DNA of 64,000 nucleotides from Schaalia suimastitidis DSM 15538 (GTDB lineage Bacteria; Actinomycetota; Actinomycetes; Actinomycetales; Actinomycetaceae): assembly GCF_000429105.1 (NCBI RefSeq), contig NZ_AUBF01000007.1, positions 62,001 to 126,000 of the forward strand, given 5' to 3'. This document shows, in pieces, positions 48,253 to 54,744 of the stretch. The stretch's first letter is position 1. Each line of letters starts with the position of its first letter. A model generated the notes under the pieces. It made no database searches, was not told the DNA's origin, and was given only the letters and a program-made list of their open reading frames with translations. Both the position numbers and the translations under genes were made by a program.

Positions 48253-48427
48253 CGTGCATGCGGGTCGTGGGCGGCTACAGCTGTGGGTGTATCTTCAGAC
48301 AACTTGTGGATGTGACGTGCCGTTCACACGAGTAGGTAACGATCTGACAACGATACGGCTCTTGGAGTCGTAGTGGACACGCCGCGGTGCGAAACTGGAG
48401 GTGCCACATTGTTTAAGGAGTGCCGCC

Positions 48428-49423
48428 ATGTCCCTGCATCGCATTACTACACGGCTTACCCTCCCTGTGCTTGCTGTCGCATTACTTGCGGGGGGTTGTA
48501 GTGCTAGCAGTCCCAATGCCATGTCTTACGAGCCCGCGGTTGAGTCGACGGTGGCAGATAGCACCTACAGCGTTGAAGGTGCGGTAGGGGACCGGAATGC
48601 AATTGAAGCGGGTAGCGCCACCGCGGAGGCATCCTCCACGGTCAGCGCGCAACACGTCATTGTCACCGGGTGGGCAACGGTTCGCGTTGACGAACCCGCT
48701 ATTGCTCTGACCCAGATCACAACGTGGGTAGAGCAGGCGGGTGGCCGCATTGATTCCAGCCGTTTCTACGGCAGTGGCGACACTACGCGCGCCGAGGCGA
48801 CGGTACGTATCCCAGCGCCTCGTTACACGGAACTGACCTCCTACCTGAATGAGGTGGGTACTGTCCTGAACCAAGAGACGAGCCGCGAAGACGTTGGCCA
48901 ACAGGTGGCAGACCTTGAGGCTCGCATTGCAGCGTTGCAGACATCCATTGATCGTTTGACGGCATTGATGAACGAGGCGGCCAACGTCACTGACTTACTT
49001 GAGGCTGAACGCGAACTGACTTATCGCCAATCTGAGCTTGATTCGTTGAAATCGCAGCGGGCCTATCTGGCTGATCAAACTGAGTTGTCAACCTTGACGA
49101 TCAGCCTTACGACATCGAGTTCGGCCATTGACTCCGATAAGAACGTGTGGGAGGGGTCGTGGACGCTATTCGTTGACGGGATCAGTCTTATCGGACGAAT
49201 CCTGGTCTTCCTTGCTCCGTGGGCTATCTTTGGTGCAGTGATCGTGACACCGGTCGTGATGCTTATTCGGCGCCGACGCAAAAAAGGGCCAAAGGACCTC
49301 AAAGGGTCGCAAGCCGCCGAAAGCGCAAATCTGCCCGCCAAAGGTGCCGAGCCAGCCGAAGGTGCCGGGTCTATCAAAGGTGCGGAGCCAGCCAACGGTG
49401 AAGGCAGCGATACACACGACTGA
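48428..49423 (+). CDS. DUF4349 lipoprotein with C-terminal membrane helix
   Basis: 331 residues. Lipoprotein signal with C24 (AGGC), a Ser/Thr/Ala-rich spacer, a DUF4349 domain (ATVRIPAPRYTELTSYLNEVG, SREDVGQQVADLEARIAALQTSIDRLTALM with coiled coil), one membrane helix at about 255-280, then an Arg/Lys-rich cytoplasmic tail with KGAEPAE/KGAEPAN repeats. Function unknown; it would span the envelope with the lipid anchor outside. ATG 48428 has AAGGAG 7 bases upstream. Confidence 0.85.
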   Translation: MSLHRITTRLTLPVLAVALLAGGCSASSPNAMSYEPAVESTVADSTYSVEGAVGDRNAIEAGSATAEASSTVSAQHVIVTGWATVRVDEPAIALTQITTWVEQAGGRIDSSRFYGSGDTTRAEATVRIPAPRYTELTSYLNEVGTVLNQETSREDVGQQVADLEARIAALQTSIDRLTALMNEAANVTDLLEAERELTYRQSELDSLKSQRAYLADQTELSTLTISLTTSSSAIDSDKNVWEGSWTLFVDGISLIGRILVFLAPWAIFGAVIVTPVVMLIRRRRKKGPKDLKGSQAAESANLPAKGAEPAEGAGSIKGAEPANGEGSDTHD

Positions 49424-49545: not shown

Positions 49546-50829
49546 CTAGGACAGATACTGGCGTACCTGCTCCATATCCTTGTCGCCTCGGCCAGACAGA
49601 TTGACGAGCAGAAGTAACGGTTCAGCGTCTTTCCCATTGGTTTGGACGTGTTCACGCGCCATCTTCAAAGCCTGTGCGATGGCATGTGAGGATTCCATGG
49701 CGGGAATAATGCCTTCGTAGCGGCTTAAACTCTTATACGCCTCAAGTGCTTCAGCGTCGGTGATACCGACATAGCGTGCCCTACCAGATTCGGCAAGGTA
49801 AGCATGTTCAGGGCCGACCGACGGGTAGTCCAGGCCAGCGGAAATGGAATGTGACGGTTGGACTTCGCCGTCGTCTGAGAGCATGACGAAGGAGCGCATC
49901 CCATGGAGAACACCCACACGGCCAGCGCAGATAGGTGCCCCGTGTTCGCCTGTGTCCAAGCCGTGCCCTGCTGGTTCTACGCCAACAATGTCGACTTCAG
50001 GGTCGTCAAGGTAGGCAGCAAATGCGCCAATCGCATTTGAACCGCCACCAACGGCTGCCACTACTGCGTCGGGCAGGCGACCATAGGAGGACAAGATTTG
50101 GGAGCGGGATTCTTCAGAAATCACTTCTTGGAAGTAACGCACCAGGGTGGGGAAGGGGTGTGGCCCTGCGGCAGTACCCAGCAGGTAGAAGGTGTCTTCT
50201 AAACGTGTGCACCATTCCTCTAAAGCTACGTCAATTGCGTCTTTCAAGGAGGAATCACCGCGCGTCACCGGGTGAACGGTAGCGCCCATCAGTTCCATAC
50301 GTTCAACATTGGGTCGTTGACGCGCGACGTCCCGTGCTCCCATGTAGATGGTGCATTCCATCCCCATCAGCGCAGCTACCATCGCGGTGGCGGTGCCGTG
50401 TTGCCCAGCACCAGTTTCTGCGATAAGGCGTTTCTTTCCCATTCGTTTGGCCAAGAGTGCCTGACCAAGAACGTTATTGCCTTTGTGTGCGCCACCGTGC
50501 ACAAGGTCTTCGCGTTTGAGGACGATCCGTGCGCCACCTCCAACGGGGAGGTTGCGGCATTCATAGATGGGTGTGGCGCGGCCAAGGTAACTCTTGCGCA
50601 ACGCATTGAGTTCGGTGATGAAGGTGGGGTCCGCTAGAGCGTCAACGTAGGCCGCTTCAAGTTCGTCAAGAGCAGGAAGTAGAAAATCGGGCACTTCCTG
50701 TCCGCCGAAACGGCCGAAATAGGCCGGTAGTAGCGTTTGACGGATATTGTGCTCGTCGCCGGGGATGACCGAGGCGGTTGGCAGCGCATTCGCTGTCGGC
50801 GCAGCACCATTAGGTAGTGCGGTTGGCAT
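49546..50829 (-). CDS. trpB: tryptophan synthase beta chain (orphan)
   Basis: 427 residues, TrpB1 type. Condenses indole with serine. PLP lysine in [19 protein letters not shown], catalytic Glu in AETGAGQHG, phosphate loop VGGGSNAIG; the start [21 protein letters not shown] matches. ATG 50829 has GAGGAG 6 bases upstream; a longer frame from 50919 crosses the attenuator and is rejected. trpA and the other trp genes are absent from the window; the next gene is unrelated. A leader peptide with three Trp codons and alternative hairpins lies upstream, so expression responds to charged tRNA-Trp. The cell may use external indole, or trpA is elsewhere. Confidence 0.95.
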
Positions 50830-50870
50830 GGGAACTCCTCTAAGTAGTGTTGAGGCGGACCCGGTGCCGG

Positions 50871-50967
50871 ATAAGACAACTGCCCGCCATCGTGGCGAGC
50901 AGTGAATCAGGTACGACACATCAGGGGCTCGCCTATTGGCTGAGCCACCACCAGGAACGGTGACGCG
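50871..50967 (-). promoter_or_regulatory. trp transcription attenuator
   Basis: On the minus strand: hairpin 1:2 is GGCTCAGCC-AATA-GGCGAGCC (one bulged A), starting right after the three Trp codons. The terminator 3:4 is CTGCTCGCC-ACGAT-GGCGGGCAG (plus-strand 50880-50902, one G-U) followed by TTGTCTTAT. The antiterminator 2:3 pairs GGCGAGC (50927-50933) with GCTCGCC (50894-50900), all seven positions. Stalling at Trp codons frees segment 2, so the terminator cannot form. Confidence 0.88.
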
Positions 50968-50971
50968 TCAT
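50933..50971 (-). CDS. trpL: trp leader peptide with three consecutive Trp codons
   Basis: Twelve codons, [12 protein letters not shown], then TAG, reading leftward from ATG at 50971. The Trp codons occupy 50945-50953. It lies 103 bases before trpB and is followed by the attenuator hairpins. It has no Shine-Dalgarno; TAGCGT (minus strand) ends 7 bases before the ATG, so the peptide is probably translated from a leaderless message. Confidence 0.85.
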
Positions 50972-50978
50972 ACAGCAC

Positions 50979-50984
50979 ACGCTA
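50979..50984 (-). promoter_or_regulatory. -10 element TAGCGT of the trpL-trpB promoter
   Basis: TAGCGT on the minus strand, 7 bases before the trpL ATG. It overlaps CTATCG-TTCGAC-CGATAG (50982-50999), an inverted repeat that might be an operator. Confidence 0.5.
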
Positions 50985-51456: not shown

Positions 51457-54400
51457 ATGACCAAACATGGTTTCTACCCCCGCCACCGGGAAACAGAGGT
51501 CGAGGCATCTCCCTCATTCCCGCAGATGGAAGTCAGCACCCTCGCGTACTGGGCTGCGCATGACACCTTCCGTAAATCCATTGAGCGTCGCCCCGCAGGA
51601 GACTGCGGTTCTAACGAATTCGTCTTCTACGACGGTCCGCCCTTCGCGAACGGCCTACCCCACTATGGGCACCTGCTCACCGGTTACGTGAAGGATCTCG
51701 TTGGTCGCTACCAGACGATGCGTGGCTCCCGTGTCGAGCGCCGCTTCGGCTGGGATACTCATGGCCTCCCCGCCGAACTTGAGGCACAGCGTGAACTTGG
51801 CATTGACGACGTCACTGAAATCACCCGCGAAGGCGGTATCGGCATCGAAGCATTTAACAATGCGTGCCGTACCTCCGTTCTGCGCTACACCAAAGAATGG
51901 GAAGACTACGTGACGCGCCAAGCGCGCTGGGTTGACTTCGACAATGACTACAAAACCCTTGACCTGTCCTACATGGAGTCCGTGATCTGGGCATTTAAAA
52001 CCCTCTACGATAAAGGGCTGGCCTATCAGGGGTACCGTGTGCTGCCGTACTGCTGGCACGACCGCACACCTCTGAGCAACCACGAACTCAAAATGGATGA
52101 CGAGGTTTACCAGGACCGTCAAGACCTCACTGTCACCCTCGGCCTGCGCCTCGAAGAGCCTGTCGTTCCCGGTGCCACGCAGGGTGAACTGGTCCTCATT
52201 TGGACGACTACCCCGTGGACCTTGCCGTCTAACTCCGCTGTAGCCGCAGGTCCCGATATTGACTACGTTGTGGTCGCCGTCGATGCTGGCCTTGATTCTC
52301 CGGTGGCTGGCCACAATGTGCTTCTCGCCGAGGCGCGCCTCGAAGCCTACGCTAAGGAACTTGGCGAAAATCCGCATGTGCTGGCCCGTGTCAAAGGCTC
52401 AGAACTCGCAGGTCGGCGTTATTTCCCGGCCTTCGACTACTTCGACACTGCCGAAAACCGCGCAGAAAGTGGCGCACCTGGCCCCAATGCGTGGACGATC
52501 ATCACTGGAGACTATGTCACCACCGACGACGGTACCGGTCTGGTCCATATGGCACCAGCCTTCGGTGAAGACGACATGCTTGTGTGCCAGGCTGCCGGGA
52601 TCGGCACTGTTATCCCTGTCGACGAAGGCGGGTGCTTCACGGCGGAGGTAAGCGACTATGAAGGGCTGCAGGTTTTTGACGCCAATAAGCCCATCATCGC
52701 TGACCTGCGTGATGCCACTGGTCCGCTGGCACGTGTTGAGGCATCGCGTCGCGCGCTTCTGGTGCAAATGAAGTCTTACGTGCACCCTTACCCGCATTGC
52801 TGGCGTTGCCGCAAGCCGCTGATCTACAAGGCGGTGTCGTCGTGGTTCGTACGTGTTACCGCAATCCGTGACCGCATGGTTGAACTCAACCAGCAGATCA
52901 CCTGGGTACCTGAACACACTAAGGACGGCATCTTTGGTAAGTGGCTGGCAGGTGCCCGCGACTGGTCGATTTCGCGGAATCGATTCTGGGGTGCGCCAAT
53001 CCCCGTGTGGGTGAGCGACGACCCTGCGTATCCGCGTGTGGACGTCTATGGCTCTATCGCTGAACTGGAAGCAGACTTTGGTGTTGAGGTGCCAGATCTG
53101 CACCGCCCATTCATTGACACGCTTGTGCGTCCCAACCCTGACGATCCCACCGGTAAGTCCATGATGCGCCGTATCAGCGACGTACTGGACTGTTGGTTCG
53201 AATCGGGGTCGATGCCCTTCGCGCAGGTGCATTACCCCTTTGAAAATCAGGACTGGTTCGAGTCGCATTACCCGGGCGACTTTATCGTGGAATACATCGG
53301 GCAAACCCGCGGTTGGTTCTACACCTTGCACGTGTTGGCCACTGCTCTGTTTGACCGTCCAGCATTCACCAATTGTGTTTCGCACGGCATTGTTCTGGGT
53401 GACGACGGCCGCAAGATGAGTAAGTCCCTGCGCAACTACCCCGACGTATCCATGGTTTTCGACAAATATGGTTCGGATGCGATGCGGTGGTTCCTCATGT
53501 CGTCAACGGTTGTGCGTGGCGGAAACCTTGTGGTGACGGAAGACTCGATCCGCGACACGGTGCGACAAGTGTTGCTTCCGATGTGGAATAGCTACTATTT
53601 CTTCACGTTGTATGCTGGGGCAGCTAATCAGGGCGCGGGTTACGAGGCAAAGCGCCTTGATCTGTCAAGTCCCGAAGCGGTCGCCGCCTTGCCAGAAATG
53701 GATCGTTACGTTCTTGCCCACACCAAGCGTTTGGCCGATGCGGTGCGTGATGCGCTTGACGTGTACAACATTGGTGATGCCAGTGAATTGGTGCGTGACT
53801 ACCTCGATGTGCTCACCAACTGGTACGTCCGCACGCAACGTCAACGCTTCTGGGATGAAGATCCGCTGGCCTTCGACACGCTGTACACCGCATTGGTGAC
53901 ACTCACGGAGATCACTGCCCCGCTGTTGCCGCTGCTGTCTGAGGAAATGTGGCGTGGGCTTACCGGTGGGGAGTCAGTGCATTTGGTGGATTGGCCGACC
54001 TTGCCGGAAGCTGCGGCTGACGAGGCGATGGTGGCCACGATGGATCAGGTGCGTTCCGTCGTCTCGGCAGCGCACGCATTGCGTAAGACGAATGCTTTGC
54101 GTGTGCGTCAGCCTCTTGCGTCGATGCTGGTGGTGACTCCTACTGCCAACTCGGTGTCGCGTTGTGGTGCGCTGGTTGCGTCCGAAGTGAATGTGAAGGA
54201 CGTTCGTTTTGTGACGCCGGAGGATTCTGGTCTGGCGGTGTCAACGGAATTGTCCTTGAATCCGCGAGCCTTTGCTCCGCAGATTCGTCGTCACACGTCT
54301 GCGCTGTTTGCTGCTCAAAAGGCTGGCGCGTGGGAAGTTTCCGCTGATGGTGAGTCGGTGACGTTCCCTGGTGTGGATGCAGGCGAAGGGCCAGTGGTGC

Positions 54401-54744
54401 TGACGGGTGACCAATTCTCCTTGTCTACTCGGGTGGATGCTGAGCAGGGGCAGGTTGCTCAGGTCTTGTCTGATGGGTCGATTGTGGCGCTCGATACGAC
54501 GCTTACCGCAGAACTTGAGGCGGAAGGTTACGCGCGTGACGTGGTGCGTGCAGTCCAAGATGAGCGCAAGAATGCGGGCCTGCATATTGCTGACCGTATT
54601 GATCTGCGCATTGAGGCACCGGAGGACAAGGTGGAGGCTGTGCGCACGTGGAGTGACATGATTGCCACCGAAACCTTGGCGCTGTCCGTGGAAGTCGTGG
54701 CTTCTGCCAGTGGGCAGCTTTTGGTGAGTGTGGCCAAGCGGTAG
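51457..54744 (+). CDS. ileS: isoleucyl-tRNA synthetase
   Basis: 1095 residues, the long form of bacterial IleRS. Class I motifs: HYGH (69-72) in [15 protein letters not shown] and KMSKS (653-657) in [13 protein letters not shown]. The editing (CP1) domain with TTPWTLPSN and [15 protein letters not shown] and the anticodon-binding region are present. The last ~150 residues form an additional domain. The GAGGA ribosome binding site lies 5 bases before the ATG and inside the T-box sequestrator stem. Single-gene unit with a strong terminator. Confidence 0.97.

Follow-up and report, generated by a model that had tools for sequence, protein, structure and literature searches.

A trpB gene that stands apart from the other genes of tryptophan synthesis raises two questions: how its expression is controlled and what the enzyme is used for. 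Such a gene occurs in Schaalia suimastitidis DSM 15538, in the window analysed here (64,000 nucleotides of contig NZ_AUBF01000007.1), where a short intergenic region with a run of tryptophan codons precedes it. We consider it very probable that this region is a ribosome-mediated Trp attenuator working from a leaderless message, and that it controls a second TrpB encoded outside the trp operon, whose most likely role is the joining of scavenged or leaked indole to serine.

The open reading frame, the alternative pairings and their conservation, the spacing between box and start codon, and the gene contents were read from the sequence. All elements are on the minus strand. A -10-like box, TAGCGT (50979..50984), is followed after 7 nt by the leader peptide ORF (50933..50971), which starts with ATG at 50971, ends with TAG at 50935-50933 and includes three Trp codons (TGG, 50953-50945). 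Strand 1, GGCTC(A)GCC (50938..50946), overlaps the third Trp codon; strand 2, GGCGAGCC (50926..50933), can take strand 1 or strand 3 as its partner; strand 3, ACTGCTCGCC (50894..50903), can form an antiterminator with strand 2 or a terminator with strand 4, GGCGGGCAGT (50879..50888), which is the 3' half of the terminator stem. A tail, TGTCTTATCC (50869..50878), comes next, and trpB follows with its own Shine-Dalgarno sequence, GAGGAG (50835..50840), and a coding region (49546..50829) for an E. coli-type TrpB of 427 aa, identified by TIGR00263 and by alignment to solved TrpB sequences.

In the predicted folds, hairpin 1:2 joins 50946-50938 to 50933-50926 around an AATA loop, pairing 2:3 joins GGCGAGC (50933-50927) to GCTCGCC (50900-50894) with 7 of 7 pairs, and stem 3:4 joins 50903-50894 to 50888-50879, in agreement with the terminator scan, which counts 11 pairs (10–11 overall). 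The window has, as an attenuator does, tandem Trp codons within a short ORF ahead of a tryptophan gene, mutually exclusive pairings 1:2, 2:3 and 3:4 in which a stalled ribosome would free strand 2, and an intrinsic terminator before trpB (stem 50903-50879). The predicted fold energy of the 100-nt leader is -50.6 kcal/mol; shuffled sequences average -32.4 (z -5.8), and none of 200 shuffles was as good. This anatomy, from leader peptide through the three hairpins to trpB, had been described in the initial annotation and is confirmed. The tail had been called U-rich; it is accepted by the terminator scan, but it is only moderately U-rich and TTTT is absent 30–100 nt past the leader stop. At Rfam gathering thresholds no family covered the leader, four tRNAs being the only matches in the window.

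Upstream of these elements, an inverted repeat with 11-base arms CGCCTCGTCCA and TGGACGAGGCG and a 9-base spacer is present at 51038-51008 (minus strand), 23 nt before the -10 box and between trpB and the divergent ileS (51457-54744, TIGR00392). It may serve as an operator or belong to the leader of the divergent gene, and the 50 nt upstream of the leaders at loci L055 and L056 showed no similar repeat.

A Trp-rich leader of the same build was found at 31 distinct trpB loci of Actinomycetaceae and Corynebacterium. After a search of 151 family genomes, 30 trpB loci were fetched, the window's included, and the leader lies just upstream of trpB in 14 of them; of the remaining 16, 13 show a long open frame that extends into trpB, the layout of an operon or a fusion. 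The leader is also present at 23 of 78 named trpB loci, and the total of 31 is 14 plus 23 minus six duplicate genomes. Hairpin 1:2 is predicted at each of these loci, 3:4 is not always in the predicted fold of the downstream segment, and TTTT occurs 30–100 nt after the leader stop in 23 of them, the window being one of the eight that do not have it. A pattern scan of the family gave matches in 39 of the 151 genomes, some of them by chance, since a reversed control pattern matched as well, with as many as six hits in the 4.3-Mb genome G126. In the window's genome the leader pattern occurs once, at the window's place.

The genes behind the leader differ among the relatives. In seven of the 31 loci (L009, L010, L068, L076, L079, L097 and L105) trpB is followed by trpE, trpG and trpD, heads a trpE-G-D operon and is not solitary. 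Near trpB in the other 23 relatives, tblastn over a few kb found no trpE, trpG, trpD, trpC or trpA, except at L082, where trpA lies about 3 kb ahead of trpB. In other Actinomyces genomes (L136, L142 and L162) it is trpE that has a leader of this type in front of it; the gene at L136 and that of A. gaoshouyii match anthranilate synthase I, and from the spacing we infer the same placement at L134, L135, L137, L138 and L139. In genome G127 a leader precedes trpD (L160, judged by eye). As TrpX genes are preceded by it too, as described below, the leader type is associated throughout with tryptophan supply.

Several individual loci deserve mention. In Actinomyces culturomici (L057:3841-3897) the leader ORF starts with GTG (TTISTRSWWWLSSLASR) and continues through strand 2, so that strand 2 would already be covered when a translating ribosome arrives at the stop codon. 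In Actinomyces sp. AC-20-1 (L090:3806-4001) hairpin-like letters precede trpB and the Trp codons are, by eye, out of frame with a nearby GTG; this region is possibly a decayed leader. In the Actinomyces operons L018, L020, L022, L024–L026, L030 and L032, trpC and trpB share one frame of 752–1126 codons, which suggests TrpC-TrpB fusion proteins. In the TrpB tree, the protein of the Trueperella pyogenes 331_TPYO record (L083, G132) differs very little from its counterpart in Actinomyces sp. ph3 (L080, G150); the two genomes are placed in the same genus as the window, and the Trueperella pyogenes record name may be wrong.

As to how translation of the leader begins, no Shine-Dalgarno sequence precedes the leader ATG in the window and the geometry of box and start codon fits a transcript beginning at the AUG, as in a leaderless ORF. 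Both the missing Shine-Dalgarno and the box 7 nt before the ATG had been pointed out before and were read directly in the sequence. The spacing was then compared among 37 leaders, obtained by pooling 42 and clustering them at 80% identity. In 35 of the 37, the end of TANNNT lies 6–8 nt upstream of an in-frame start (ATG or GTG): 14 leaders have 6 nt, 19 have 7 nt and two have 8 nt, any start being counted in the several leaders with more than one candidate. None of the other offsets between 0 and 30 occurs in more than five leaders. Two loci, L011 and L076, have no box at the 6–8 nt positions, and the one Shine-Dalgarno-like site in the set, at L079, overlaps the box. A leaderless start of the window's leader is well supported by this sequence pattern.

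Attenuators of C. glutamicum are also reportedly leaderless, as Neshat et al. are said to have described in 2014. For S. lividans, the available part of PMC8079986 states that trpL1 (MFAHSTRNWWWTAHPAAH) is leaderless according to RNA-seq. A pattern for this peptide matched in 14 of 394 genomes of the class, and TANNNT lies 7 nt before the ATG in 13 of these Streptomyces-type copies and 6 nt before it in one (L189). Leaderless trp attenuation is therefore already known, and the window is a further case of it rather than the unusual arrangement that the initial annotation had taken it for.

A helix that had previously been missed was detected at the 5' end. In this outer helix the first codons of the leader pair with the segment after strand 2; in the window, minimum free energy folds pair the 5' arm ATGACGCGTCA (50961..50971, minus strand) with the 3' arm TGATGTGTCGT (50913..50923, minus strand), which places the AUG inside the helix. 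At least five outer-helix pairs are predicted in all 37 leaders, and each leader is above its own shuffled-arm mean (2.6–8.4). Leader by leader, shuffling of the arms gives weak support, with two of the 37 below 0.05 and the window at 0.105 (combined Fisher p ~1e-4), and the outer-helix claim therefore rests on permutation between leaders. Across species the letters change and the match is kept, as in GAATCG/CGATTC, ATGCGC/GCGCAT, GTTGAC/GTCAAC and CTTGAAG/CTTCAAG. Own arms score a mean of 11.3 kcal/mol versus 7.6 for foreign arms in the 37 leaders, some of which are related and whose arm borders and start codons were chosen by the analyst; none of 100,000 permutations was as good. The same result (0 of 100,000) was obtained with 21 representatives and two scores, and an upstream control segment showed no excess (10.7 own vs 11.0 foreign). 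The own arm is the single best of the 21 in only seven cases by helix score or eight by duplex energy, because ACGAC/GTCGT is common to many species.

The comparison of own and foreign arms was used because 1:2 was the only helix that RNAalifold recovered (5 pairs, no double-sided changes) when 14 leaders were aligned by plain MAFFT, the other strands being misaligned by unequal loop lengths; a second, trimmed alignment mixed two terminator layouts, so no covariance model was built. Compensating changes in related species, which had been proposed as a check of the stems, were not seen in 1:2 by RNAalifold; judged by the permutations, the outer helix covaries between species. In Streptomyces leaders, inspection by eye shows that CGCG close to the AUG could pair in a similar way with a downstream CGCG, and this pairing is not always the one chosen in the predicted fold. 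No paper on such an outer helix was among those listed in searches of the open-licence PMC literature, judged by titles and the first part of abstracts. The helix could gate the entry of ribosomes at the 5' AUG.

From these elements a mechanism can be proposed, to which the model adds a transcript start, Trp-dependent read-through and the gating by the outer helix. RNA polymerase would start at the leader AUG or 1–2 bases off, and a ribosome would bind the 5' AUG directly. When Trp-tRNA is plentiful, this ribosome would reach the stop codon and cover strand 2, 3:4 would form and transcription would end before trpB. When Trp-tRNA is scarce, the ribosome would be held over strand 1 at the three Trp codons; 2:3 would then form before strand 4 is made, and trpB would be transcribed. 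If no ribosome is loaded, the outer helix and 1:2 would close the leader from the start codon on, and 3:4 would again terminate.

The predicted folds, in which a ribosome footprint of about 13 nt ahead was assumed, are consistent with this scheme. If RNA synthesis has reached only 50889 and a ribosome is stalled at the first Trp codon, folding gives the 2:3 hairpin (-15.4 kcal/mol). A ribosome placed on the stop codon prevents 2:3 (-2.7), and 3:4 follows, with -18.2 kcal/mol for that hairpin alone. The outer helix together with 1:2 contributes -29.9 kcal/mol. When strand 4 has been made, static minimum free energy folding chooses 3:4 in each of the three states tried, including the one with a stalled ribosome; antitermination therefore has to be kinetic and decided during RNA synthesis. 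In C. glutamicum, according to the accessible part of PMC11995493, the third Trp codon of trpL was changed to raise expression of the tryptophan operon.

A further proposal, which we offer tentatively and hold to be somewhat more likely wrong than right, is that the outer helix acts as a 5' gate, that the element senses two inputs, and that it was carried over from full trp operons to lone salvage trpB genes and Trp importers as the pathway decayed. The first codons would pair with RNA made about 40 nt later, and a ribosome would have to claim the 5' AUG before that; if the moment is missed, the leader would fold shut and transcription would end. A gated element of this kind would sense both the charging of Trp-tRNA and the ribosomes able to start on leaderless RNA.

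Other explanations for the leader have to be weighed against the attenuator. That a run of Trp codons and some hairpins arose by chance in a GC-rich intergenic stretch might be argued from TGGTGGTGG, which by itself is not rare (4 places within the window), and from the window's outer helix taken alone, for which shuffled arms were as good in 10.5% of cases; conservation at 31 trpB loci of diverged sequence already refutes this idea, whose probability we regard as negligible. Transcription could instead come from further upstream, the small ORF being translated by another route, since the promoter scan of the window found no -35 element and 0 promoter-like sites, and an in-frame GTG is located 9 nt upstream of the ATG. 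The sharp peaks of the TANNNT spacing at 6 and 7 nt, the leaderless trpL1 reported for S. lividans in the available part of its source and the equal spacing of the Streptomyces-type copies make a start of this kind very improbable. It is also improbable that the leader acts through Rho or through polar effects of its translation instead of an intrinsic terminator: the moderate U-tail and the eight loci without TTTT point in that direction, against TTTT in the remaining 23 and, in the window, a 3:4 stem of 10–11 pairs whose tail the scan accepts. Those same two observations suggest that Rho or a non-canonical terminator may share the work with the attenuator.

The enzyme itself is a TrpB1-type protein, with 563 bits for TIGR00263 against a cut-off of 392, and for TrpB2/trpB_rel (TIGR01415) it reaches 145 bits where the cut-off is 518.85. 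The residues aligned to the catalytic Lys and Glu of the Salmonella enzyme, K87 and E109, are kept. The gene had been considered an orphan trpB, and it does lie outside the trp operon, but it is not the genome's only trpB, a possibility that was rejected when another copy was found. In this 2.29-Mb genome trpC, the other trpB, trpA and a TrpE-like gene are together on a different contig (C1), which also carries trpD; these genes answer in part the proposed search for the rest of the pathway, which covered trpA, trpB, trpC, trpD and trpE. The best match of the TrpE-like protein is anthranilate synthase component I, at 659 bits, just under the cut-off of 693, and the small WW ORFs in the 600 nt upstream of its gene do not resemble the leader. 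The operon TrpB is 54% identical to the window TrpB, and among named relatives, a set that may not include the window's own record, the highest identities to the latter (79–81%) are those of Schaalia canis, Schaalia sp. Marseille-Q2122, Actinomyces culturomici and Actinomyces mediterranea. The gene adjoining trpB (48401-49423) has matches of 35–44% identity in 11 of 29 other genomes of the genus, too weak to date an insertion.

In a TrpB tree of 68 rows, all 31 leader rows fall within one 48-row group (support 100/96), composed of a clade of 22, which includes the window, and a clade of 26. Eight of the 22 rows in the window's clade have no such leader. At L007 and L060–L066 (A. succiniciruminis, A. 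israelii and others), a second trpB of this clade has no Trp-rich leader just upstream, and the genome of L007 has a leader before trpE (L142) instead. The residue aligned to Salmonella beta-K167, which we take to be a contact or bridge to TrpA, is kept in 22 of 22 rows of the window's clade and in 0 of 26 of its sister.

This residue bears on what the second TrpB does. The attenuator could work as described and the protein be an extra beta subunit for the TrpA of the operon, raising synthase capacity without any salvage. The genome has trpA, the K167-aligned residue is retained in the window TrpB and throughout its clade, and the gene comes first in a complete trp operon in Actinomyces gaoshouyii and A. 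timonensis. On the other hand, Schaalia canis, Schaalia sp. Marseille-Q2122, Actinomyces mediterranea and Schaalia cardiffensis, members of the same clade, keep leader and trpB with no trpA found, and we consider the extra-subunit explanation rather unlikely. For the salvage of indole, which we prefer, it should be kept in mind that the window's genome has trpA and other trp genes, so that salvage is not its sole possible source of tryptophan.

No trpA was found in 14 of the 31 leader-trpB genomes, and in the same 14 no trpD was over the cut-off; trpC is missing in seven of them and a homologue is present in the other seven. They comprise nine family genomes (G024, G027, G054, G098, G109, G121, G122, G142 and G148), of 98–100% completeness, five of which were scored by absence from the match list, and the genomes of the named loci L055, L056, L058, L059 and L086, the completeness figures covering the former nine. 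The remaining 17 genomes have trpA, G026 in part only. Since a lone attenuated trpB would receive no indole by this route, salvage of indole from neighbours suggests itself, and as far as gene contents tell, trpB alone stays attenuated in these 14 genomes, probably for this purpose. These relatives suggest that a TrpB of this kind can be kept for scavenged or leaked indole alone.

In two further genomes, G078 and G128 (L145 and L151), a Trp leader of the same type (MTYMNRQWWWLA and MTYSNRQWWWLA, respectively) precedes a gene for the tryptophan-transporter binding protein TrpX, with 391.7 and 393.2 bits for NF041285 against 390. Neither genome gave a TrpB match at E 1e-100, a trpA match (in G128 by absence from the list) or a trpD over the cut-off.

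The four-strand logic and the Trp-codon leader peptide of the window are those of E. coli trpL, which has a Shine-Dalgarno sequence and whose first codons, unlike those of the window's leader, are not known to pair with the RNA that follows strand 2. Seliverstov et al. (2005; PMC1262725) predicted trp attenuators in Corynebacterium and Streptomyces and, as stated in the part of that paper available, a candidate before the extra trpB1 of the C. diphtheriae trpB1EDGC genes, so an attenuated extra trpB was already known there. Their set shares with the window tandem Trp codons, alternative hairpins, a terminator and a position upstream of trp genes; the window differs in having trpB alone. Their conserved triple gGCC-rGCy-GGCC has no exact match here; judged by eye, strands 2, 3 and 4 of the window have AGCC, TGCT and GGCA at the corresponding places. 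According to the figure legend, their alignment spans from the Trp codons to the terminator, which leaves the outer helix outside it. S. lividans trpL1 resembles the window in being leaderless, in its three Trp codons and in the TANNNT-to-ATG spacing of Streptomyces-type copies, but it controls trpE and not trpB, and its termination is given in the accessible part of PMC8079986 as Rho-independent with a U-enriched stretch.

As for the enzyme, plTrpB of Pelodictyon luteolum is described, in the part of PMC11917138 available, as a natural TrpB with high activity alone. It is of TrpB1 type like the window TrpB and needs little help from TrpA, yet it has a TrpA partner. Chlamydia trpRBA, as the sources available describe it, is likewise a reduced trp set used with scavenged indole, but it keeps trpA and is regulated by the repressors TrpR and YtgR, with no leader peptide. 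Regulated TrpX is known as well, by another device, since trpX of S. suis is under a T-box in the accessible part of PMC9382623.

Loss of tryptophan synthesis in Actinomycetaceae is reported in PMC5404923, in whose main text, as far as available, the term trpB was not found. Among the open-licence PMC papers listed in literature searches, none was found, judged by titles and abstract beginnings, that deals with an attenuated solitary trpB of trpA-less Actinomycetaceae. The interpretation given in the initial annotation is thus partly supported, and the attenuator itself is of a known type. What is new is that the leader is kept on a lone trpB, that it is placed before trpX in seemingly pathway-less genomes, and that it has a covarying 5' helix. 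The element is also a compact model for what must be a race in time between leaderless initiation and attenuation. For the family, these findings suggest that the control of a pathway can outlive the pathway, a Trp-sensing leader being kept on the remaining enzyme or importer that supplies tryptophan.
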